From positions 1 to 55,790 of the forward strand of contig CALGPN010000054.1 of the NCBI GenBank assembly GCA_937960435.1: a stretch of 55,790 bases of DNA. The letters run 5' to 3'. Positions 3,413 through 55,737 of this stretch are shown in pieces. The stretch's first letter is position 1. Each line of letters begins with the position of its first letter. The position numbers were made by a program, and so were the translations under genes. Below the pieces are notes generated by a model that saw nothing but the letters and a program-made list of their open reading frames with translations, searched no databases and was not told where the DNA came from. Source of the DNA: an uncultured Desulfosoma sp. (GTDB taxonomy: Bacteria > Desulfobacterota > Syntrophobacteria > Syntrophobacterales > DSM-9756).

Positions 3413-3702
3413 CCTCGCGGAATTCAACCTTGTCTTTCACCCCCCCGCCAAAGGGCCCGAGACGGGGTCTTTGACGAACCCCAGGGCCCGCGGCCCGCAT
3501 TTCCTGCCGCCCACAGGCATGTTTTGCTCTGTGCGGAGAAAAAATTTCCCCCTGGAAGGCCTGCCCGACAAAATCTTTGAATCCTATCCTATCGGAATCA
3601 CAATATTCTTTAGATATTTCCGTCCTGGCACCGGCCTTGCTCAAGAAGCCGACTGAGACGTGAACAGGAGCATCCCTCCGCTGACAATGACGAGGAAGAT
3701 TT
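3413..3702 (+). other. Intergenic leader before fliK; no gene seen
   Basis: 290 bases without a convincing gene. The left part is GC-rich with a weak imperfect hairpin (about 3462-3485, no T-run), so I do not call a terminator for the fliH-fliJ unit. The right part holds the sigma-54 promoter given separately and the fliK ribosome site (GAGGAAG, about 10 bases before the ATG). Confidence 0.7.
3626..3640 (+). promoter_or_regulatory. Sigma-54 promoter for fliK-flgD-flgE
   Basis: TGGCAC-CGGCC-TTGC, followed by T. It matches the -24/-12 consensus TGGCACGN4TTGCW in both boxes, with the GG and GC dinucleotides exactly 12 bases apart. The predicted start is near 3652, about 50 bases before the fliK ATG. 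An enhancer-binding activator would be needed; none is in the window. Confidence 0.85.
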
Positions 3703-46094: not shown

Positions 46095-47891
46095 TCAGCA
46101 CGAGAAGCGTTCTAGGATCTCCAAAAGCTTTTGGTAACTTAACGGCTTGGAACACACGAGATCCACACCGCGATGGCTCAAATCCTCATCTTCATATTGA
46201 GCCCCCCAGCCGCTGACCAAAATGACCGGAATCCGAGGACGACGAGCCCTGGCACGTTCGGCGATGTCCCAGCCGTTGACGTCCGGCATCCCGAGATCCG
46301 TCAGGATGAGGTCAAAGAATTGGCTGTCTAGAAGTTCCAGGGCCTTACGGGAATCATGCTCGGTCGTCACATGGTGGCCCATGAGCCGCAACATGTCCCC
46401 GAGGAGTTCCAGGACTTCCCGGTCGTCATCCACAACCAGCAAACGTTTGCGCACATTTCGGGGCGGACCAGCCTCTCGCCTCGCCTCCCCGTCCCTTTCC
46501 GCCTGGGCCTCTGGAAGGTTAAGAATAAATGTAGTTCCCCGGCCGGGATGGCTTTGCACCGTGAGGCGTCCTCCCCATCGCTGGATCAAACTCCAACAGA
46601 CGCTCAGCCCGAGACCCGAATTGCCCGCTCCTTTGGTGGTAAAAAAAGGCTCGAAAATTTTTTGCCGGGTCTCTTCATCCATCCCGATGCCCGTATCGCT
46701 CACCTCCAAAAACACCGCATCCTCACCGGCATACGACCGGAACCTCAACGTGCCCCCTCGAGGCATGGCGTCAATGGCATTGAAGACCAGGTTCGTGAGC
46801 ACTTCGCGAAAATCGGCACTGTGCATGGCCGCGCACAATCCTGGGGTCAAGTCTTTGACGATTTCAATGCACCGCCCCTGCTTTTCCAAAGCGTTCTTCC
46901 ACCGGGGCCGAGTCAAATCAAGGACGTCCTGCACCGCCTCGTGAATCACGGTCCTTTCCGCCTTCTCCTGGAGGCCGTGTTCCTTGCCCGTAAACACTTG
47001 AAGGCGCCGCACCACATGGGCTCCGTCGAGCACCGCTTGTTCAATGTTTTTTAATCGTCGTCGCACAGGAGCGGGCATCTGGGCAAGTTCTTTACTCAGA
47101 AGTTGGGTATTGCCCAGAATGGTCATGAGGATGTTGTTGAAATCATGGGCGACGCCGCCCGCCATGGTACCGAGGGAAGCCAGTTTTTCCGTGCGAATGA
47201 GCTGCTGAGAAAACGTTTTTTTCTCGCTGATGTCCTCGACAATGAAGAGAAATCGCGCAGCGTGCCCTTCGGGAAGCGCGATTTTGGAGACCGTCACACT
47301 TGCGGGGAATCTCCGCCCTTGACCGTCAATGAAGGTCTCATCACTTTCCCGGACACTTTCTTGGCTTTGCGCTTTTCGGAGAAGCCGTTGCAGAACCGCC
47401 GGCTCTTGGAAAAGCTCCGTGGCGGACCCCGTTTTCGCTTCCCTTTCGCTGCCGGATAACCACGATGCCAAAACGGGGTTCGCTTCCACAATGCCCCCGT
47501 GTTCATCCAAGATCCCGATCCCCTGAGGACTTTGACGAAAAATCTCAAGAAGGAGACACCGAGATAGATCCTCGGAACCTCGCGCATGCTTTTCAGCGGC
47601 TTTGTCATCTTTCGGTCCCGAAAAGTTTGGGCCGGATGCCTGAGGATCGTGGTTAAAATTTTTTGTCGAGCGTGTCGTTTGCTCTGAAAAACCGGGTCCC
47701 ACCAAATCTTTTTTGCCCGATCCGCTTCGGTCCGTCAGCGACTGTTTGAGAGAAAAATCAAACCCACTCCCGGTCGGATCTTGGAGCGAGGGGGCATCTG
47801 TTTTTAAAGAAGGTTTCAAAATCAGTCGGTCATGCCAAGGATCTTCCATGGTGAGCCTTTCTGCAGTGCCTATGGGTTTTTCCGGTTCCAT
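46095..47891 (-). CDS. Cytoplasmic hybrid histidine kinase (PAS-HisKA-HATPase-REC)
   Basis: 598 residues, no membrane segment. A polar, probably disordered N-terminus (1-105), a PAS domain (about 110-225, FRQSPQGIGILDEHGGIVEA), phospho-His in ASLGTMAGGVAHDFNNILM, the ATPase motifs LTNLVFNAIDAMPRGG, VSDTGIGMDEETR and GNSGLGLSVCWSLIQRWGG, then a C-terminal receiver (LLVVDDDREVLELL, LILTDLGMPDVNG). ATG 47891 has AGAGGGGG upstream. Signal and target unknown; it is divergent from the dsbC-like gene. Confidence 0.92.
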   Translation of the reverse strand: MEPEKPIGTAERLTMEDPWHDRLILKPSLKTDAPSLQDPTGSGFDFSLKQSLTDRSGSGKKDLVGPGFSEQTTRSTKNFNHDPQASGPNFSGPKDDKAAEKHARGSEDLSRCLLLEIFRQSPQGIGILDEHGGIVEANPVLASWLSGSEREAKTGSATELFQEPAVLQRLLRKAQSQESVRESDETFIDGQGRRFPASVTVSKIALPEGHAARFLFIVEDISEKKTFSQQLIRTEKLASLGTMAGGVAHDFNNILMTILGNTQLLSKELAQMPAPVRRRLKNIEQAVLDGAHVVRRLQVFTGKEHGLQEKAERTVIHEAVQDVLDLTRPRWKNALEKQGRCIEIVKDLTPGLCAAMHSADFREVLTNLVFNAIDAMPRGGTLRFRSYAGEDAVFLEVSDTGIGMDEETRQKIFEPFFTTKGAGNSGLGLSVCWSLIQRWGGRLTVQSHPGRGTTFILNLPEAQAERDGEARREAGPPRNVRKRLLVVDDDREVLELLGDMLRLMGHHVTTEHDSRKALELLDSQFFDLILTDLGMPDVNGWDIAERARARRPRIPVILVSGWGAQYEDEDLSHRGVDLVCSKPLSYQKLLEILERFSC

Positions 47892-48002
47892 CGTGCCCCC
47901 TCTTCGATTATCGTCCCAAATAGAGACGAACCTTAGGGAAAAAACCCATATCGCTCATGCTTCGGCTTATGCCATGATAAACAAGATCTTACAATGAAAA
48001 AG

Positions 48003-48031
48003 TTGTCACAATTAGGTTTCTTCGGTGACAA
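48003..48031. promoter_or_regulatory. Inverted repeat, possible operator
   Basis: TTGTCAC (48003-48009) and GTGACAA (48025-48031), a perfect 7-bp inverted repeat with arm centres 22 bases apart, about two helical turns, as for a dimeric regulator. Located in the AT-rich divergent region. Confidence 0.4.
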
Positions 48032-48098: not shown

Positions 48099-48113
48099 CG
48101 GCACAAGTTTTGC
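48099..48113 (+). promoter_or_regulatory. Weak sigma-54-like site before the dsbC-like gene
   Basis: CGGCAC-AAGTT-TTGC: first -24 base is C not T, otherwise both boxes and the 12-base spacing fit. The predicted start is about 80 bases before the ATG at 48204. Could be chance. Confidence 0.35.
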
Positions 48114-48203
48114 GGTAGATTGCGCGACGATTTGTGCGAATCCCCCCTGGGAGGGACGACTCTTCCGCCAAACGATTCCATAAGACGGGGCAAGGAGAAA
48201 ATC

Positions 48204-48974
48204 ATGCGAATAAAGTCGGCAATGGTGATTTTGGTCCTGATTTCTCTCGGGCTCTTGGTTTCCCCTGCCCTCCGGGCGGCGGAGCCGAAAGACGCCTCCT
48301 GCCCCGATGCCGCCGCCGTCCAGGAAAAGGTTTCGGCGACCTTTGCCGGGCGCCAGGTCATGGTCAAAAAGGTGACCCCTTCCCCTATGCCGGGTTTGTG
48401 CCAAGTGCATGTGCTGGCCAGCGAAAAAAACCAGATTCTCTACACGGATGCCTCCGGTCGCTACCTCGTTTTGGGACAAATTCTTGACGCCCAAGACAAA
48501 AAGAACCTCACCCAAACCGCTCTGGAAGAATTGAACCGCTTGAGCCCAGAGGATCTGGAAACGCTCAAAGGGCTCGTGGCCTTCACCCTGGGGCCGGACA
48601 ACGCCCCAAAAACGCTCTATTTCGTGACGGACCCCCAGTGCCCCTATTGCAAGCAAGCTGAAACCACTCTGGAAGCCATGGCCTCCCAAGGCGTCCTCAG
48701 CGTGCGCTACGTCCTCTTTCCTTTACCCATCCACCCCGGAGCCCGCGAATCCTGCATCGCGCTCATTTGTGACAAGAAAGGCCACGACGAGTTTAAAAGC
48801 AATTACAAATCCGACAACCAATGTCCGGAAGGAACCGAAAAGATCGACGCCGTCATGAAATTCATGCAGGCGCACGGAATCGGGGGAACGCCCACGTACA
48901 TCTTTTCCGACGGCACGTTCCGCTCCGGCGTCATGGACCGCCCGGCCTTGGAGAACAAATTGACCTCGCCATAG
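48204..48974 (+). CDS. DsbC/DsbG-like periplasmic thiol-disulfide protein
   Basis: 256 residues. Signal peptide (MRIKSAMVILVLISLGLLVS, cleavage after RAA). An N-terminal DsbC-like dimerisation domain (VMVKKVTPSPMPGLCQVHVL, GRYLVLGQILD) precedes a thioredoxin fold with CPYC at 146-149 (DPQCPYCKQAE) and the cis-Pro loop GGTPTYIF (T229-P230). The CPYC centre is the DsbG form. Five further Cys (33, 66, 184, 189, 207) are unusual. ATG 48204 has AAGGAG upstream. The oligosaccharyltransferase gene starts 7 bases after its stop. Confidence 0.9.
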   Translation: MRIKSAMVILVLISLGLLVSPALRAAEPKDASCPDAAAVQEKVSATFAGRQVMVKKVTPSPMPGLCQVHVLASEKNQILYTDASGRYLVLGQILDAQDKKNLTQTALEELNRLSPEDLETLKGLVAFTLGPDNAPKTLYFVTDPQCPYCKQAETTLEAMASQGVLSVRYVLFPLPIHPGARESCIALICDKKGHDEFKSNYKSDNQCPEGTEKIDAVMKFMQAHGIGGTPTYIFSDGTFRSGVMDRPALENKLTSP

Positions 48975-48980
48975 GATGGC

Positions 48981-51125
48981 ATGAGCCCCGTGAGGTCTCG
49001 TCCGGCCGAAATTTCCCGATCCGCCCGAATCTGGGTCGTCTTGGGCCTGGCCGCCGCCGTCGCCGCGGCATTGTGGGTGCGCTTTGCCCCGTATCCACGA
49101 TGGACGCAGAATCGCGATCGGTGCTTTGTCCAGGGTGAACCCTTGCCCACAACGTTCGACGCCCCGTATTACATGCGCCTGGCCCGCGACGTGTTGGAAG
49201 GAACCTATGAGGCCCAAGACCCCTTCCGAGGGGTCCCGGACGTTCCGGCGCGGCCCCGGCCCGTCCCGCTCCTGAGCCTCCTCACCGCGGGAATCCACAA
49301 GCTCGGCGGCATGTCCATCCCCTGGGTCGCTCTGATCCTTCCGGCCGTTCTCGGCGCCCTTTCCGCGCTGTGCCTGTACATCCCGGCCCGAACCCTCATG
49401 AGCCCGCTCGGGGCGATCATCGCCTGTGCCGCTTTGGGCCTCTCTCCTTTTTTCGTGCACCGGACCAATTTGGGCCGTCTGGACACGGACAGCCTGAACG
49501 TCGCGCTCCCCGTCTTGGTCGTCGGATGCCTCATGAGGTTTTCCAACGCGCCACGGCGCGCCGGCCTTTGGCTCGCGGCGGCCTTGGCGGTGGTAGGAAT
49601 CCACGCGTGGTGGTGGGATCAGAGCCCGCAGACGCCGTTTCTTTTGGCGGCCGTCCCTCTTGTTGTGGCTCTCGTGAAACGACGCCGTCTGGACGGCGGG
49701 AAATACCTTTGCGCTGTTTTGGCCCTCATGGTCCTCGTTGCCGCCGCGGTTTTCGCCTTTAAAGGCCCCGCTCCTTTTGTGAAAGCCTGGCGCCTTGCCC
49801 ACGGGCAACTTTCTTACATGCTGGTAAAACAACCCCCCGGGGATTTTCCCAACATCGGGGTTTCCATCAGTGAGCAGGCTCGGCCGACTTTTGAAGAATT
49901 CGGCCGCACGGTGGCCGGTCATGCAGCCGTGCTGGCTGTGGCGGTTTTCGGCCTTGTCTGGCTTTTCATCAAGCAGCCGAGGGTTTTATTCTTTTTTGCC
50001 CCGTTGGTTTTTCTCAGTTTCGTCGGCTCGTTTTTCGCCCAGCGTTTGTCCGTTTTCGCCGCCCCTCTCGTCGGCCTGGGGTTGGGATGGGTCACCGACC
50101 GCATTCATCGGGGCTTGAGATCCCGAGCGGCCACCTCGCCGCTCCGGCAGGGGTTGTCGACGGCGGCGGCCCTCGCCGTGGGTACCCTTCTTCTCCTTCC
50201 GGCGTTTGGTAACACAGCCAAGACCATGCGGTGGCCGTCGGAAAATGCGCCGGTCGTCAACGCCATGGTCGAAGCGGCGCGGCGCACTCCGGAAAACGCC
50301 GTGATCTGGGCCTGGTGGGATCACGGGTACCACATTCAGTATTGGGCGCGCCGGGGCACCCTCGCCGACGGCGAAATCCACGGGGGAGAACTGGTGATGT
50401 ATCTGGCCATGCCGTTGGTCGCGAGGGATGAAAATTTCGCGGCCGACTTCATGATTTTTTTCAGCACCCGGGGTTTATCGGGCATTCGGGAATTTTCCCA
50501 GGCCAACGGCCTTTCGGCTGCACGCACCATCAAGGCTTTGAAAGCCCTGCTTTCCGCCGGTCCCGACGCCTGTGAACAAAAGGCCCAAGAACTGGGCCTC
50601 ACCCGGATCCCGGGCGAAAAGACCTGTCGCGGCTTTTTCTACCCCGATCCTCCACGCCCGGTTTATCTCTTTTTGGACCAGCTGCTTCTCAACACCGTGT
50701 ATTGGTGGTACTGGTTCGGCACCTGGGACCCGGAAACCCGAGACGGCATCCATCCGGTCTATCGGCCCATCTATCCCGTCGTCTTGGGAGACGACACTTC
50801 GCGGCGGGCGGCGGGCGTTGCGGGCGTCCATCTCCAACGGGGAGAACTCCATTGGGGCGATCGCGTTGTCCCTCTGGCTTCCCTCGGTGTGGTCGGCCGG
50901 GACGGAACCCAAACCGTGTGGCGCTACCGTGACGGCCCCGGGCCCCGTCTCGATGTGCACCAAGTCTTCTCCTTCGGGGTCCTTATGGACGGAGCGCCCA
51001 TGGACGAATCGGTCTTTCACCGCCTGTTTTTCGTCAACGAAGCCCCGGCCGGGGGCCGATTCCGCCGCATCTTCCAGAGGCCTTTTCTCTATCAGCTCTG
51101 GGAAGTCCTTCCCACACGACGCTAA
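48981..51125 (+). CDS. PglB/STT3-type oligosaccharyltransferase
   Basis: 714 residues. About 12 membrane helices (1-410) and a C-terminal periplasmic domain. Catalytic features of the STT3/PglB/AglB family are visible: an early Asp in TFDAPYYMRL (D60), the DxD of GRLDTDSLN (168-170), a TIxE-like SISE (295-298) and WWDHG at 445-449 (AVIWAWWDHGYHIQYW), the sequon-Thr/Ser binding motif. It would move a lipid-linked glycan to Asn on periplasmic proteins. Co-transcribed with the DsbC-like gene; no glycan-synthesis (pgl) genes are in the window. Acceptors unknown. Confidence 0.92.
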   Translation: MSPVRSRPAEISRSARIWVVLGLAAAVAAALWVRFAPYPRWTQNRDRCFVQGEPLPTTFDAPYYMRLARDVLEGTYEAQDPFRGVPDVPARPRPVPLLSLLTAGIHKLGGMSIPWVALILPAVLGALSALCLYIPARTLMSPLGAIIACAALGLSPFFVHRTNLGRLDTDSLNVALPVLVVGCLMRFSNAPRRAGLWLAAALAVVGIHAWWWDQSPQTPFLLAAVPLVVALVKRRRLDGGKYLCAVLALMVLVAAAVFAFKGPAPFVKAWRLAHGQLSYMLVKQPPGDFPNIGVSISEQARPTFEEFGRTVAGHAAVLAVAVFGLVWLFIKQPRVLFFFAPLVFLSFVGSFFAQRLSVFAAPLVGLGLGWVTDRIHRGLRSRAATSPLRQGLSTAAALAVGTLLLLPAFGNTAKTMRWPSENAPVVNAMVEAARRTPENAVIWAWWDHGYHIQYWARRGTLADGEIHGGELVMYLAMPLVARDENFAADFMIFFSTRGLSGIREFSQANGLSAARTIKALKALLSAGPDACEQKAQELGLTRIPGEKTCRGFFYPDPPRPVYLFLDQLLLNTVYWWYWFGTWDPETRDGIHPVYRPIYPVVLGDDTSRRAAGVAGVHLQRGELHWGDRVVPLASLGVVGRDGTQTVWRYRDGPGPRLDVHQVFSFGVLMDGAPMDESVFHRLFFVNEAPAGGRFRRIFQRPFLYQLWEVLPTRR

Positions 51126-51178
51126 CCGACAGTCCTCAAAGTGTCGCGGCGTTCGTCAGGATCGGGCGCAGTCTTTTT

Positions 51179-54100
51179 TTATTTTTCCAGAATGCGCCGC
51201 CAGGACCCCTGGACTTTCTTTGTGACATAGGTGGTGCCGAAAACCGTTTCATTGTTGAAAACACCGTCACCCACAACGTGCACGTGGGTTCCCCCTTCAC
51301 GGCCGGTCACCTTGACGTACAGGTGTTCGTCTTCCACAAAAAGCGCCGTCACATTGCCTTCCACTTCGGCGACCGGTATCGGCTCGGGGGTCCCTTCCAG
51401 CGCAGCCAAATCGACCTTATAGACCTTTCCACCTTTTTTTCCTTCCTCGTTCTGTGCAGGGGCACAGGGATCGGTCGTGTCCGTGACGGCCGTGCCGAAA
51501 TACACCATTCCGGCGGCGGCGACGGCCTCGGCCCAGATGCGATGGCCCGCCGGAAGGGTCCACGTCCACTGCGCGTCGTCTTCGGCAAACATTTTCTGCC
51601 GAGGGCACGGGACGCCGTCTTTTCGGCGCAGCACTCCGTCGGTGCGGTCCATGCGGCACGTATCGTCAAAAACATAGAATTTGTATCCCGTCGGTGCATT
51701 GGGACTGTCGGCATGGTCAGGGTCGTCCCCGGTGCCGAACATGACCTTGACATGTTCTTCTTCGATGGTCCCGTCGGGTTTGTACCGATGGTCCACATAG
51801 ACCACCGGAGTGGCATAAACCGGTGCGGGGACCTTGACCAGAAGACTGACGGCGATTTTTCCCGAGTCCCACACCCCCTCAGGCCCATCGGGAAAATCCA
51901 GGCGATACACGTGTCCGAGGTTGTCCGCCACGTAGGCTCGGTCCACGAAGCCGTTCCCGTCGACGTCCACGACGGCGGCACTGCCGCCGAGCACCGCCCC
52001 GAGGTTGGTCTCGACGACGTCCAACACCGCTTTTTTGACCAGCACACCTCGAGCCGCATCGATGACGAACAAGGAAGGATGGACGTCTCCAAGGGTCCGG
52101 CCCGAATTGAGGAAAAGCGCCCACACGGGACTTCCGCCGTCGTTCAGACGACCGACTTTCGCCACCGCGGGAGCCGCCCGGCTTCGATAAAGATCGGGCT
52201 CGGCGTATTCCCAAAGGAAAGACGGCTTTTCGGGATCCGTCACATCCACGGCGAAAACCGTCTCCCCTCCCTCGCCCTGGGCGGAAAAGAGAACCGTTTT
52301 GAACTCAGGGCCCGTATCGGACCTCGCGGCGATGTCGTAAACGGCCGGGGAGGCGTCCACGGCCGGAGAGCCCCCCACGACGTCGGCGCGGAGGAAAAAC
52401 TTCAAACGGGAAACGTTATTCGGAGGGACAAAAGCCCATAGTTCGGCCCCGTTTCCGTAATCCTGCTCTTCGAAGTATCCCCGGTTTTCCTTCACGGGCG
52501 TTCGGGGATCGTCCCCATGGCGGAAGCGTCCCGCCCGAAAGGCATGGATCATGCCTCCCAGACTTCCCACGTAGGCCACCGTCGGTCGGTGCGCCACGGC
52601 CTCCGAATGCCTCCAGCGATCGTAGGCGTCTCGTTCTTCCTGCGTCGTGTGCCTGCCGAAATACCACGGGGGAAGACCCGGCGGCCCCACGACCGCCGGC
52701 GTGCTGTGGTCGATCCCTTCCAGGGGCCAGGGCCTTTCCCGAGCGCCGTCAAATCCCAACACCCACCCAATGAGAAACTGGCGGTCGGTGTCGTCGTATC
52801 GGCCGTCTCCATTCAGATCCCAGAGAAAACCCACGCCGCGGATCACGGCGTCGCTTAGGCCCAGCATATAAGCCGAGACCCTTTCTTTCGAAAAGGGTCT
52901 TAGAGTGTCGCTCGGGGTGTAAGAGACGAACTCCGCCGTGACGGGACAGCCGTCGCACGGGGCCTGGACAAACTCCAAGGCATACTCACCGCTGAGGCGC
53001 CGGAGCATCCCTGTGCCGTCGCCTCGGAGTTCGCCCGTGCCGGAATCCACGAGGACCAGAGGAACTCCCGCCGTGGTTGTGCTTCGCAAGACGACGGACC
53101 CGGGCAGAAGCGGGCCATGGGGAAGGGTTCCCTGGAACCGGCGCCGGGCGCCGTCGCCGGTTCCGACGGTTTCTCGCCTGGTTTGCGTCTCACGAAGCGG
53201 CGTCAAAATCGTTCGGGGATCGGTGGTTAGGCTTCGTTGGGCCAGTTTCATCCCCGCATCCCACAGCGGGCTGAAAAGGGGCCGAGCCGGCTCGGCCGGG
53301 TCGTAGATTTTGTACGCCCGGAGGTGGCCGCGAAGCGGCGAAGCTTCCTCCCAAGACGGGGACGGCGTTTCCAGCGTGCCGGAAAACAACACATTTCCCA
53401 GCACCACGGGGTCGGATCGCGAAAATTCCCCGTTTCGGGCAGCCGTATAGGCGACGCTCACTTTCTGGATTTCCGGAAGATCGCAGCGCCCATCCACGGT
53501 TTCCAAAAGGGCCTTCCACTTGAGGGAGCGGCCTGCGCGCCCTCGGCTCAAAACGTCCACGTGAGCCCTTCGGGTCTGGAAACCGTCCTCACTTTGGCTC
53601 ACCCCATCCCATCGGTCCACGGGAAGCCAGGAAGAGCCGTTATCCACACTGATGAAGTACGAGACGGTTCCGCCAGACAAGACGCCCGGATCCAAGGGGA
53701 ACCCGCCGGTTGCGTCCTCACAAGGCGCTCGGCGATCCGTCACCTCGAGATCCACGGCCGTGATGACCCCGCCGGACTCCTCGAGCTGCACCCCGCTCAC
53801 ATCCCGGGACACAACCCGCCCCGCCGCCGCAACCGTCACCGTGCACACCACATCGTTGTGGTCGGTATCTCCGCCACCGGGCTGATCTTCCCAACCCAGG
53901 ACCCACAGGCCGGGAACGGACCGCGCGGCCCCGACGATCCCATGGAGAAATTTCTTTCCCGTATGCACCGGCACACGAACCACGTCCACCGGATCGAAAA
54001 CGATGCCGAATCTTTCGCGAAGCCGATCCAAGGCCTTCGGCGGGAGCCAGCCCGAACTGACGGCGCAGGTTCCGTCATCCAACGCCGAAGCATTTAGACG

Positions 54101-54913
54101 GTACTCTTTGGGCGGCATGCCGTCGGCAAATTCGCTCCCACACGGGTCGATTCCCGAATACACATCCTCGTTCCATGAAGTTTGGGTCAAAAAGACGCCT
54201 TCAAAACGGCCGTCAGGGACCAGGAAAAAGACGATCTCTTCTCCTTCCCCGATGACGCCGAGGCTTTTGGTCGCGTCCCGAACGGTGAGCCGTCCGTCCC
54301 CGTCGGGAAGAAAAGGCAGCCCCGTGCCGTCGTCCACCCGGGCCAGGGCTTCTTCCGTGTCGGCGTAATCCACGACGGCGGATTCGGCTTCGGGAAAAGA
54401 TTTCAGGCACCCTGCCCCAGAGGGTTTATCCGGGACGCCGTTTCCGTTTGCGTCCCGAAGACACGTGAAAATGTATGGAAAGGTTTCGCGGTCGTAGGCG
54501 GCCGGATCCGTAAAATCGATGGCTCGAACGAAGGCCGCGCGGTTCAGGGACCCGTCGTCTCGGATGTAGCCTTTGCGCCGGGCGGTGGATTTCAAAAAAT
54601 AACCGAGGTGGTTTCGAGAGCTTTCGGACCTTTCGAAAAGGAAAGTGACCCGCACTTCTTGATTCTTGGCCGCGACAAGCCTTTGGGGATCCGGGGCTGG
54701 CGTCCCCGGATGAAGCACGAGACGGCCCGTGGTGGCGTCGATCGCCACCGTAGGGTCCAACACGCTGAAATGTGCCCTTTGCCACGAGCCTTCGTAGCGA
54801 ACGGTTCGCAGCGGTTCACACACATCGGCGAAAGCCGCCGGAACACACCACGCCGCGATCCCCAGCACCAAAACTTGCAAAAGCCAACCTATCAGCGTTC
54901 TTCCCGTACGCAT
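51179..54913 (-). CDS. pilY1: PilY1-like type IV pilus tip/adhesin protein with DUF4114-like segment
   Basis: 1244 residues. Sec signal peptide (cleavage after AFA). The N-terminal region holds a DUF4114-type motif, GWEDQPGGGDTDHNDVV, near residue 340. Calcium-loop motifs are present (DANGNGVPD, DLNGDGRYDDTD, DVDGNGFVD). The C-terminal half is the PilY1 beta-propeller: RPTVAYVGSLGGMIHAF, ELWAFVPPNNVSRLKF, VFAVDVTDPEKPSFLWEY, KVMFGTGDDPDHAD. ATG 54913 (GGAAAGGG upstream) is chosen over an upstream TTG. pilX-like gene precedes it. Role in pilus assembly or adhesion is inferred. Confidence 0.9.
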   Translation of the reverse strand: MRTGRTLIGWLLQVLVLGIAAWCVPAAFADVCEPLRTVRYEGSWQRAHFSVLDPTVAIDATTGRLVLHPGTPAPDPQRLVAAKNQEVRVTFLFERSESSRNHLGYFLKSTARRKGYIRDDGSLNRAAFVRAIDFTDPAAYDRETFPYIFTCLRDANGNGVPDKPSGAGCLKSFPEAESAVVDYADTEEALARVDDGTGLPFLPDGDGRLTVRDATKSLGVIGEGEEIVFFLVPDGRFEGVFLTQTSWNEDVYSGIDPCGSEFADGMPPKEYRLNASALDDGTCAVSSGWLPPKALDRLRERFGIVFDPVDVVRVPVHTGKKFLHGIVGAARSVPGLWVLGWEDQPGGGDTDHNDVVCTVTVAAAGRVVSRDVSGVQLEESGGVITAVDLEVTDRRAPCEDATGGFPLDPGVLSGGTVSYFISVDNGSSWLPVDRWDGVSQSEDGFQTRRAHVDVLSRGRAGRSLKWKALLETVDGRCDLPEIQKVSVAYTAARNGEFSRSDPVVLGNVLFSGTLETPSPSWEEASPLRGHLRAYKIYDPAEPARPLFSPLWDAGMKLAQRSLTTDPRTILTPLRETQTRRETVGTGDGARRRFQGTLPHGPLLPGSVVLRSTTTAGVPLVLVDSGTGELRGDGTGMLRRLSGEYALEFVQAPCDGCPVTAEFVSYTPSDTLRPFSKERVSAYMLGLSDAVIRGVGFLWDLNGDGRYDDTDRQFLIGWVLGFDGARERPWPLEGIDHSTPAVVGPPGLPPWYFGRHTTQEERDAYDRWRHSEAVAHRPTVAYVGSLGGMIHAFRAGRFRHGDDPRTPVKENRGYFEEQDYGNGAELWAFVPPNNVSRLKFFLRADVVGGSPAVDASPAVYDIAARSDTGPEFKTVLFSAQGEGGETVFAVDVTDPEKPSFLWEYAEPDLYRSRAAPAVAKVGRLNDGGSPVWALFLNSGRTLGDVHPSLFVIDAARGVLVKKAVLDVVETNLGAVLGGSAAVVDVDGNGFVDRAYVADNLGHVYRLDFPDGPEGVWDSGKIAVSLLVKVPAPVYATPVVYVDHRYKPDGTIEEEHVKVMFGTGDDPDHADSPNAPTGYKFYVFDDTCRMDRTDGVLRRKDGVPCPRQKMFAEDDAQWTWTLPAGHRIWAEAVAAAGMVYFGTAVTDTTDPCAPAQNEEGKKGGKVYKVDLAALEGTPEPIPVAEVEGNVTALFVEDEHLYVKVTGREGGTHVHVVGDGVFNNETVFGTTYVTKKVQGSWRRILEK

Positions 54914-54987
54914 CGGCCCTTTCCAAAACAGCAACGCCGCGTCCCGGTCCCCTTGGCAATGGCGACGCGCCGCGGTAACGGGACCGT

Positions 54988-55632
54988 TCAGCGCACCGTA
55001 GCGAGAGGCGGCCCCGTCACCGTCACGGCCTCCCGATCCATCATGTTCACGGAACCGGGAATCGATCCTGTCCCCTCTTGGGCGTAAGAAGCCGACGCCG
55101 ACGGTTCGGCCGCCGCTTCCACCATCATTTCCGTTTCCTGCTCCGCTCCGGCGGGACCGAGGCCCACACTGCGCAGCACGAGCCGAGTGTCATCCCTCGC
55201 AAGGTTGCGAAAAGCCCCGTCTTTCGGGTCGTCGGGAAGCCGCGCGAAAACCCTGAACCGATGATCCATGCCCAGATCCACTTTGACTTCATCGTAAAGG
55301 TCGGATCGGCCGTACCGGCCGCTGTAGGGCACAGCCCCGAGAAAGAGGAAGTCCCAGTCGGGCAGCGCCGCGCTTCCCGTTTGCAACCGTTGGCGATTCA
55401 CGGGATCTGCGGCAAAGCGTTGAGCCAATCGCTGCCGGGCCACGGCAAGACCCGCCTCGGCGTTTCGAAATGCGATCTCCGCGGCCTTGCGGTTCCCGGC
55501 GATGCGCATTTCCACGGCATGGTCCAGGGCCAGCCCCACGGCCAAAACGGCCGTTGTCGCGACGATGACCAGCACCAAGGCCAAGGCAAATCCATCTCGA
55601 CCCCGCCGCAAATATCCCGACCCTCCCCGCAT
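54988..55632 (-). CDS. pilX: PilX-like minor pilin
   Basis: 214 residues. Type IV prepilin-like start: short basic leader (YLRRGRDG) and then FALALVLVIVATTAVLAVGL, with Phe after the Gly cleavage site. A PilX motif follows (EMRIAGNRKAAEIAFRNAEA, GLAVARQRL), and the rest is a pilin headgroup. Usually PilX and PilY1 enter a pilus-tip complex together. ATG 55632 has GGAAGG just upstream; the longer frame reads through the REP-like repeat and is rejected. Confidence 0.85.
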   Translation of the reverse strand: MRGGSGYLRRGRDGFALALVLVIVATTAVLAVGLALDHAVEMRIAGNRKAAEIAFRNAEAGLAVARQRLAQRFAADPVNRQRLQTGSAALPDWDFLFLGAVPYSGRYGRSDLYDEVKVDLGMDHRFRVFARLPDDPKDGAFRNLARDDTRLVLRSVGLGPAGAEQETEMMVEAAAEPSASASYAQEGTGSIPGSVNMMDREAVTVTGPPLATVR

Positions 55633-55703
55633 GGCCTTCCACCTCCCCCATGGCCTCTTGGCGGGAGCAACGGCGTCCCCGCCATCCCCTACCCCCCACA
55701 CCC

Positions 55704-55737
55704 CGTAGGTTGGGGTGAGCGAAGCGAACCCCAACAC
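55704..55737. repeat. REP-like palindromic repeat
   Basis: Contains TAGGTTGGGGTGAGCGAAGC followed by GAACCCCAACA: arms TTGGGGT and AACCCC(C)AA-type complement around GAGCGAAGCG. It belongs to a widespread family of dispersed extragenic repeats seen in many proteobacteria and cyanobacteria. It lies outside genes, upstream of the pilX-like gene. The remaining bases 55633-55790 show no gene. Confidence 0.75.

Follow-up and report, generated by a model that had tools for sequence, protein, structure and literature searches.

In eukaryotes, Ost3/Ost6 (MagT1/TUSC3) are thioredoxin-fold subunits of the oligosaccharyltransferase (OST); proteins with the Ost3/Ost6 domain have four transmembrane helices, and the oxidoreductase subunits serve acceptor sites close to Cys residues. 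In Campylobacter the gene for the OST PglB sits in the pgl glycan locus, and genes for O-linking oligosaccharyltransferases (O-OTases) of the TfpO type adjoin the genes of their targets. The natural targets of PglB outside Campylobacter are, to our knowledge, largely unknown. The 55,790-nucleotide stretch of DNA analysed here (contig CALGPN010000054.1, from an uncultured Desulfosoma sp.; hereafter the window) carries a gene for a DsbC/DsbG-family periplasmic thiol-disulfide protein followed directly by a gene for a PglB/STT3-type OST, at one end of a type IV pilus (T4P) island. The original prediction was that the disulfide protein could be a counterpart of Ost3/Ost6. Comparison of the locus with its relatives suggests that the pair probably finishes pilus-tip proteins and is not a bacterial copy of the animal and yeast sugar-transfer complex: the pair itself stands as observed, a role analogous to that of Ost3/Ost6 is unlikely, and the idea of pilus targets, also raised at the outset, gains real support.

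What the window's DsbC shares with eukaryotic Ost3/Ost6 is a thioredoxin fold and a connection with STT3, through gene position or through function; unlike them, it is a soluble DsbC-type protein with a probable signal peptide and is not tied to the OST in relatives. As with O-OTases of the PglL type (PMC3643930) and of the TfpO type, a glycosyltransferase is encoded beside likely substrates; unlike those enzymes, this one is a predicted N-linking STT3, and its sequon-rich candidate is the tip protein PilY1. The gene also differs from that of Campylobacter PglB in adjoining dsbC and a T4P island. A search of titles and the first parts of abstracts returned no description of a dsbC-pglB pair or of PglB beside PilY1.

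The explanation that we find somewhat probable from the genomic comparison is that dsbC and pglB form a sigma-54-driven unit whose products fold (DsbC) and N-glycosylate (OST) pilus-tip proteins. The two genes would be transcribed together by sigma-54 RNA polymerase, along with other surface-appendage genes; DsbC, kept reduced by a CcdA-type reductase, would rearrange the disulfides of Cys-rich PilY1; and PglB would move a lipid-linked glycan onto sequons of PilY1 and the minor pilins. The two enzymes would share clients, with no need for a stable complex. More tentatively, it is conceivable that this anaerobic lineage makes an N-glycosylated, disulfide-rich T4P tip, with sigma-54-dependent co-expression of PglB and an isomerase and with extra PilY1 sequons where the OST joined the cluster. 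Pilus-tip N-glycosylation, if true, would add a layer to the surface attachment of environmental anaerobes, and the question of PglB targets becomes open to direct test through a candidate substrate that is linked to the OST gene and whose sequon excess goes with the presence of the OST.

The gene pair and its conservation

The first gene lies at 48204..48974 on the plus strand (ATG at 48204, stop at 48972-48974) and encodes 256 aa with seven Cys residues and a CPYC motif at residues 146-149 (48639-48650). Its assignment to the dsbC/dsbG family draws on Pfam matches to DsbC_N (2.1e-18) and Thioredoxin_2 (2.4e-12), on Cys residues kept in orthologues and on PDB matches, the best by sequence being 4npb, a DsbC by title; DsbC and DsbG are nearest in sequence. 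As in the isomerases DsbC and DsbG (1eej, 1v57, 4npb), an N-terminal dimerisation domain is joined to a catalytic thioredoxin fold with a CxxC and a conserved Thr-Pro. C146, C149 and T229-P230 are invariant in 19 alignment rows. The Pro of the Thr-Pro motif is presumably the cis-Pro known for this family. Unlike classical DsbC/DsbG, the protein has CPYC and seven Cys, is encoded in a T4P locus and falls under both NCBIfam equivalog cut-offs (50.2/124 bits for the DsbG model and 45.8/215 bits for the DsbC model), which places it, as judged from these scores, outside the E. coli DsbC/DsbG equivalogs and in the family only. Of its initial description as a DsbG-type CPYC protein with seven Cys, the motif and the Cys count are borne out, and the DsbG type is not settled. 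The seven Cys are not a special trait, this number being usual in the family: of 21 alignment rows, one of them truncated at the N terminus, 20 keep C33 and C66, 12 keep C184 and all 21 keep the other four. A structure model built from two sequences was too poor for use (pLDDT 52.6), with DsbC/DsbG still its best matches. The single N-terminal hydrophobic stretch looks by eye like a signal peptide, and the window's genome has a member of the CcdA/DsbD_TM family, a candidate reductant of the predicted isomerase.

The OST gene (48981..51125, plus strand; 714 aa) begins after a gap of six bases (48975..48980, plus strand), where seven had been reported; both open reading frames (ORFs) otherwise lie where they were first placed, and domain matches confirm both at family level. 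The product matches Pfam STT3 (2.7e-14) and STT3-PglB_core (8e-9), both over the Pfam cut-offs. Its D60, D168/D170, E298 and WWDHG (445-449) align with D56, D154/D156, E319 and WWDxG of Campylobacter lari PglB, the catalytic-site residues of that enzyme, and D60, D168, D170, E298 and W445-W446-D447 are invariant in 39 sequences. An AlphaFold model from this 39-sequence alignment (pLDDT 89.9) has PglB 6gxc as its closest PDB entry (TM 0.73) and shows the GT-C transmembrane fold with a periplasmic C-terminal domain. Domains, model and aligned residues together identify the protein, by prediction, as a PglB/STT3-type enzyme expected to transfer a glycan to Asn. Desulfovibrio belongs to the same broad bacterial group as the window's source. 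OSTs of f45/g88, which we take to be Desulfovibrio, differ from the window's type in that profile matches between the types are weak (~114-137 bits). In its STT3 fold, aligned catalytic residues and WWD motif the enzyme resembles the PglBs of C. lari and C. jejuni (6gxc, 5ogl, 3rce); it differs in having WWDHG rather than WWDYG, and a Thr aligned with C. lari Arg331, a residue discussed in available excerpts of PMC4894442. Like Desulfovibrio PglB, it is a single-subunit bacterial OST; the same excerpts describe a relaxed preference at the -2 position for the Desulfovibrio enzyme.

Among 147 relatives (own genome included), the OST was found in 24 and a match to the DsbC query in 68, and the adjacent pair occurred in 3 of the 24 OST-bearing genomes, with flanks of at most 1.5 kb searched. 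These are the window's genome (G000) and the other members of its genus, G001 and G002; G000-G007 are the eight genomes of the family, G006 being Desulfacinum hydrothermale. In the genus species the two proteins are 64-70% identical to those of the window, and the gap between the genes is 6 nt in G000, 15-21 nt in G001 and 141-222 nt in G002, depending on the start codon. Within the genus, pairing (3/3) exceeds chance. No pair was found in 43 OST contigs of named genomes (0/43), and 30 OST loci from a 395-genome sample of the phylum gave it only in the same three members, several flanks stopping at contig ends. Conservation of the pairing across genomes, the check proposed at the outset, holds in every member of the genus and at no other OST locus examined.

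It is conceivable, if doubtful, that the two genes are neighbours by accident: one would encode a housekeeping DsbC and the other an OST, and the two would have come to stand side by side and be read together for unrelated clients. Adjacency in one genus only would fit this explanation, as would the family distribution: DsbC is present in 8/8 genomes and an OST was found in 4/8, with none found in G003 (a 380-contig assembly whose dsbC lies on a 3.4-kb contig), G004, G005 and G007. These last four genomes make it appear that DsbC does not depend on the OST. Outside the genus, genomes with both genes have them on separate contigs or more than 50 kb apart, except G006, one of the named genomes, at ~7.5 kb. 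Against incidental neighbourhood, the arrangement and the sigma-54-like element ahead of it are kept in three species at this level of protein divergence, and dsbC and the OST are each linked to PilY1 clusters without the other.

Pilus setting and sequon content

In each of the three genus species, the pair ends a T4P island that holds two PilY1 genes, dsbC and pglB abutting PilY1a, prepilins and PilY1b. In G002, pilA is followed by the gene for a TPR-rich protein, minor pilin genes, PilY1b, further pilin genes, PilY1a and then, convergent, the OST and DsbC; pilA was read there and partly in G000, where contig C31 ends within it, and the stretch analysed in G001 stops short of it. The G000 island is split over contigs C54 and C31, which we joined by reference to relatives. 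Across the genus, PilY1b is 1681-1714 aa long with 46-48 Cys, and PilY1a has 14-15 Cys. Across the family, dsbC lies inside a PilY1/minor-pilin cluster in 7/8 genomes, the eighth being the short contig of G003. In the Desulfacinum genomes G004 and G007 it lies 56-119 nt after PilY1 (the distance varies with the choice of start), and in G005 ~0.5 kb after it; the D. hydrothermale locus runs from the kinase through DsbC and a convergent group of PilW-type and other pilin-cluster genes with PilY1 to the OST. Further afield, DsbC lies beside PilY1 or a few small genes away in 7/20 loci (families f31, f52, f106 and f36), two of the 20 having been picked for known nearness and PilY1 having been called with the profile of this family; ten DsbC regions outside the family gave no match to that family-built profile. 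In Geobacter metallireducens, the locus numbers place the DsbC/DsbG gene (Gmet_2250) far from pilY1 (Gmet_0967). That dsbC and pilY1 recur as neighbours suggests a dedicated folding factor, and a mechanosensing role for the Cys content and disulfides of PilY1 is discussed in PMC8806160 and PMC9210963.

Operon-like dsbC-pilY1 pairs, from a 4-nt overlap to ~48 nt apart, were also seen in other families of the phylum (L164:5431-11535, L165:3860-9477, L169:8721-15394, L170:2817-8973), near genes that by eye look like pilS, pilR and pilD. The PilY1 of G331 has 77 Cys.

The OST lies beside PilY1 or pilins in five genomes from three genera and two families (G000-G002, G006 and G011). In OST trees (55 rows in the first, 32 in the second), G006 groups with G011/G022 in a supported clade distinct from that of the genus, and a single OST clade for all PilY1-linked loci was not rejected (p-AU 0.15).

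If the OST acts on PilY1, then PilY1 is expected to be rich in N-X-S/T. The eight PilY1 proteins of OST-linked clusters contain 121 such sequons, against 72.5 expected in shuffles and 72 for the reversed motif. Twelve PilY1s from OST-positive genomes without the link contain 163 against 144.2 expected, and the 37 PilY1s of OST-less genomes have, taken together, no excess (155 against 165.9 in 10 proteins and 296 against 323.8 in 27; in total 451 against 489.7). In one-sided rank tests, which leave out the 436-aa PilY1 fragment of G186, linked PilY1s exceeded OST-less ones with p=2.4e-5 (8 v 36) and, with the linked side collapsed into four lineage units, p=3e-4; unlinked PilY1s of OST-positive genomes exceeded OST-less ones with p=0.003. 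The best-matched contrast is that between PilY1b and the PilY1 of OST-less family genomes: the window's PilY1b partner on contig C31 shares 70% identity with the protein of G004/G007 over 1714 columns and 61% with that of G005. Sequons number 22, 23 and 22 in the genus proteins, 9 and 8 in those of G004 and G007 and 10 in that of G005. The pilins of the genus have 40 sequons against 23.8 expected (reversed motif 26), while 45 mechanically picked ORFs from positions 1-48000 of the window have 46 against 50.4. Of the flagellar or pilus proteins first suggested as targets, pilus proteins are the likeliest.

The E-x-N-x-T sequon (EGNVT) reported in the nearby PilY1 is indeed present, as one of five N-X-S/T sequons in PilY1a; one of the two remaining genus species lacks the acidic residue at -2. 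Since Desulfovibrio PglBs glycosylate minimal N-X-T motifs (excerpts of PMC4894442), counting E-x-N-x-T alone misses candidate sites, and this OST may not need an acidic residue at -2.

Several observations weigh against pilus-tip proteins as the shared clients. An OST beside PilY1 is rare across the phylum, and G022, of the same genus as G011, has other genes after its truncated OST and no PilY1 link. Across the phylum the window's DsbC clade co-occurs with the OST rather than with PilY1, for which a Pfam match was counted by eye in 23/48 DsbC-bearing genomes and in 202/395 overall. Only 12/35 T4P sequons are kept in all three genus species, similar to control motifs. The eight OST-linked PilY1s come from few lineages, that of G006 reaching z=0.8 only, and single OST-less PilY1s reach z 1.3-1.6 (G292, G105 and G293). 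The control PilY1s, moreover, come mostly from the top of the hit list or from DsbC loci and are not a random sample; those of G004 and G007 are 99% identical, and G331, counted as OST-less, has a weak OST-profile match (36.8 bits).

A partnership between DsbC and the OST

The proposal that the DsbC acts as a functional stand-in for Ost3/Ost6, opening acceptor sites for PglB and perhaps complexed with it, can be weighed against the same data. In its favour are the tight pair in 3/3 genus members (with the wider gap in G002) and a strong co-occurrence of this DsbC clade with the OST: of 395 genomes, 35 have both, 13 DsbC alone, 14 the OST alone and 333 neither (Fisher p=5e-28), and by family 11 hold both in one genome (p=2.6e-7), both p values being uncorrected for phylogeny. 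Genomes were called at 190 bits or more for the OST (49 genomes, including G252, in which the frame is split and each piece lies under threshold) and at 150 bits or more for DsbC of this clade (48 genomes); these thresholds were set after the lists were seen, the profiles were partly built from the same genomes, and the families are not independent. Disulfide state also changes PglB site use in engineered E. coli, as described in available excerpts of PMC8518210.

Opposed to these points, adjacency is found nowhere beyond the genus, the 13 DsbC-only and 14 OST-only genomes speak against an obligate association, as do the four of eight family genomes in which DsbC occurs and no OST was found, and no within-family contrast favours dependence (f1 and f69 keep DsbC where the OST is missing). 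No Ost3/Ost6 domain was found in the DsbC-like protein among the Pfam families listed. In the three PilY1b proteins, 12/67 sequons lie within six residues of a Cys against 15.1 expected, so there is no enrichment, which argues against an Ost3/Ost6-like role at Cys-proximal sites. In the engineered E. coli, moreover, RNase A was glycosylated by PglB to 53% without DsbC, up from 29%, and scFvs somewhat less than before (excerpts of PMC8518210), and a simple helper role of DsbC is therefore not established. We regard the stand-in as very improbable; what survives of the idea of a two-gene unit with a disulfide/OST partnership is the tight unit and the phylum-wide co-occurrence, and not a dedicated OST subunit.

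Other thioredoxin-fold neighbours of the OST were sought among ORFs of <450 aa with CxxC within 5 kb of the OST at 56 loci outside the genus, of which at least 3 are second copies of one place, 15 have flanks of at most 1.5 kb and many have flanks of <5 kb. Of 46 such ORFs, 45 were scanned in Pfam (a PilY1 fragment being left out) and none is a DsbC. The scan covered 48 proteins, including two from G011 and the window's DsbC, and 25 of the 64 families found were listed; among those listed, DsbC_N had one member, as expected from the window's own protein, AhpC-TSA had two, both the G011 proteins, and Thioredoxin_9 had two (best E 0.008). At the G011 OST-PilY1 locus, these two AhpC/TSA-Redoxin proteins, one with CPFC, lie just beyond the pilin cluster (L120:13353-14700).

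The co-occurrence leaves room for a broader link between DsbC and the OST, and is inseparable from shared ancestry. It could reflect a general partnership in glycoprotein folding, in which this DsbC clade and the OST serve the whole exported proteome throughout the phylum and the pilus link is secondary. The spread over 11 families agrees with such a partnership, as does the redox context: models of DsbA, DsbB and VKOR gave no match in G000-G002, where CcdA/DsbD_TM was found and the sole Thioredoxin_4 match is the DsbC itself, so that, of the known periplasmic Dsb proteins, DsbC may be the principal one there. Shared ancestry could explain the co-occurrence, however, with both genes following families, and f40 has an OST without this DsbC and f15 the reverse; a general partnership seems to us distinctly improbable.

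With DsbA, DsbB and VKOR unmatched, these genomes show no obvious source of disulfides, although PilY1b has 46-48 Cys. In the Desulfacinum genus, the best DsbA-family matches contain one in-frame TGA each (G004:C79:388-954, G007:C44:35178-35744 and G006:C14:87781-88347), possibly encoding a selenocysteine DsbA.

Regulatory elements and flanking genes

A sigma-54-like -24/-12 element, CGGCAC-N5-TTGC (48099..48114, plus strand; core GGCAC-N5-TTGC at 48100-48113), lies upstream of dsbC and ends 83-90 nt before its ATG in all three species of the genus. The window holds four GGCAC-N5-TTGC sites against 0.71 expected, a number reached in 0/100 shuffles; the site had been described as weak, a qualification that its conservation and this excess do not bear out. 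Further upstream, a block of ~44 nt (47968..48011, plus strand) is kept in the three-species alignment while its flanks have diverged, and is a candidate activator (enhancer) binding site. Elsewhere, pilA of G002 has a 12/12 sigma-54-like match ahead of it, as the pilin gene adjoining the TPR gene in G006 has one of 11/12. This pattern of sites fits sigma-54 control of the dsbC-OST unit along with surface-appendage genes. Further near-perfect sigma-54-like sites in the window are on the minus strand at 3626 (11/12), 20410 (11/12) and 40836 (12/12), and some of them precede genes that by eye resemble flagellar ones.

A consensus-match scan gave no terminator-like site between dsbC and the OST. 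A terminator-like stem with a T tract follows the OST (51149..51169, plus strand), between the convergent OST and PilY1 genes; it is a consensus match only, in a region with 7 such sites against 5.6 in shuffles. The minus strand then carries PilY1a (51179..54934; 1251 aa, 14 Cys; Pfam T4P_PilY1 and a weak DUF4114 match) and a PilX-like minor pilin-cluster protein (54988..55737), for which PilX_N is below cut-off (22.8/25.5 bits) and which has an orthologue in the G002 pilin cluster. On the other side, a divergent PAS hybrid histidine kinase (46095..47891, minus strand) flanks dsbC, as a homologue does in Desulfacinum hydrothermale. In G001, a 538-aa ORF without a Pfam match stands between kinase and dsbC (L069:6982-8598).

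Beside or near pilA, the genus and Desulfacinum encode a TPR-repeat protein of ~800 aa (L118:4702-7092, L121:11617-14004, L057:7928-10339, L058:12384-14840). Nearly all of its Pfam matches are to TPR families, its N-terminal half is membrane-spanning by eye, and it could be a second pilin glycosyltransferase.

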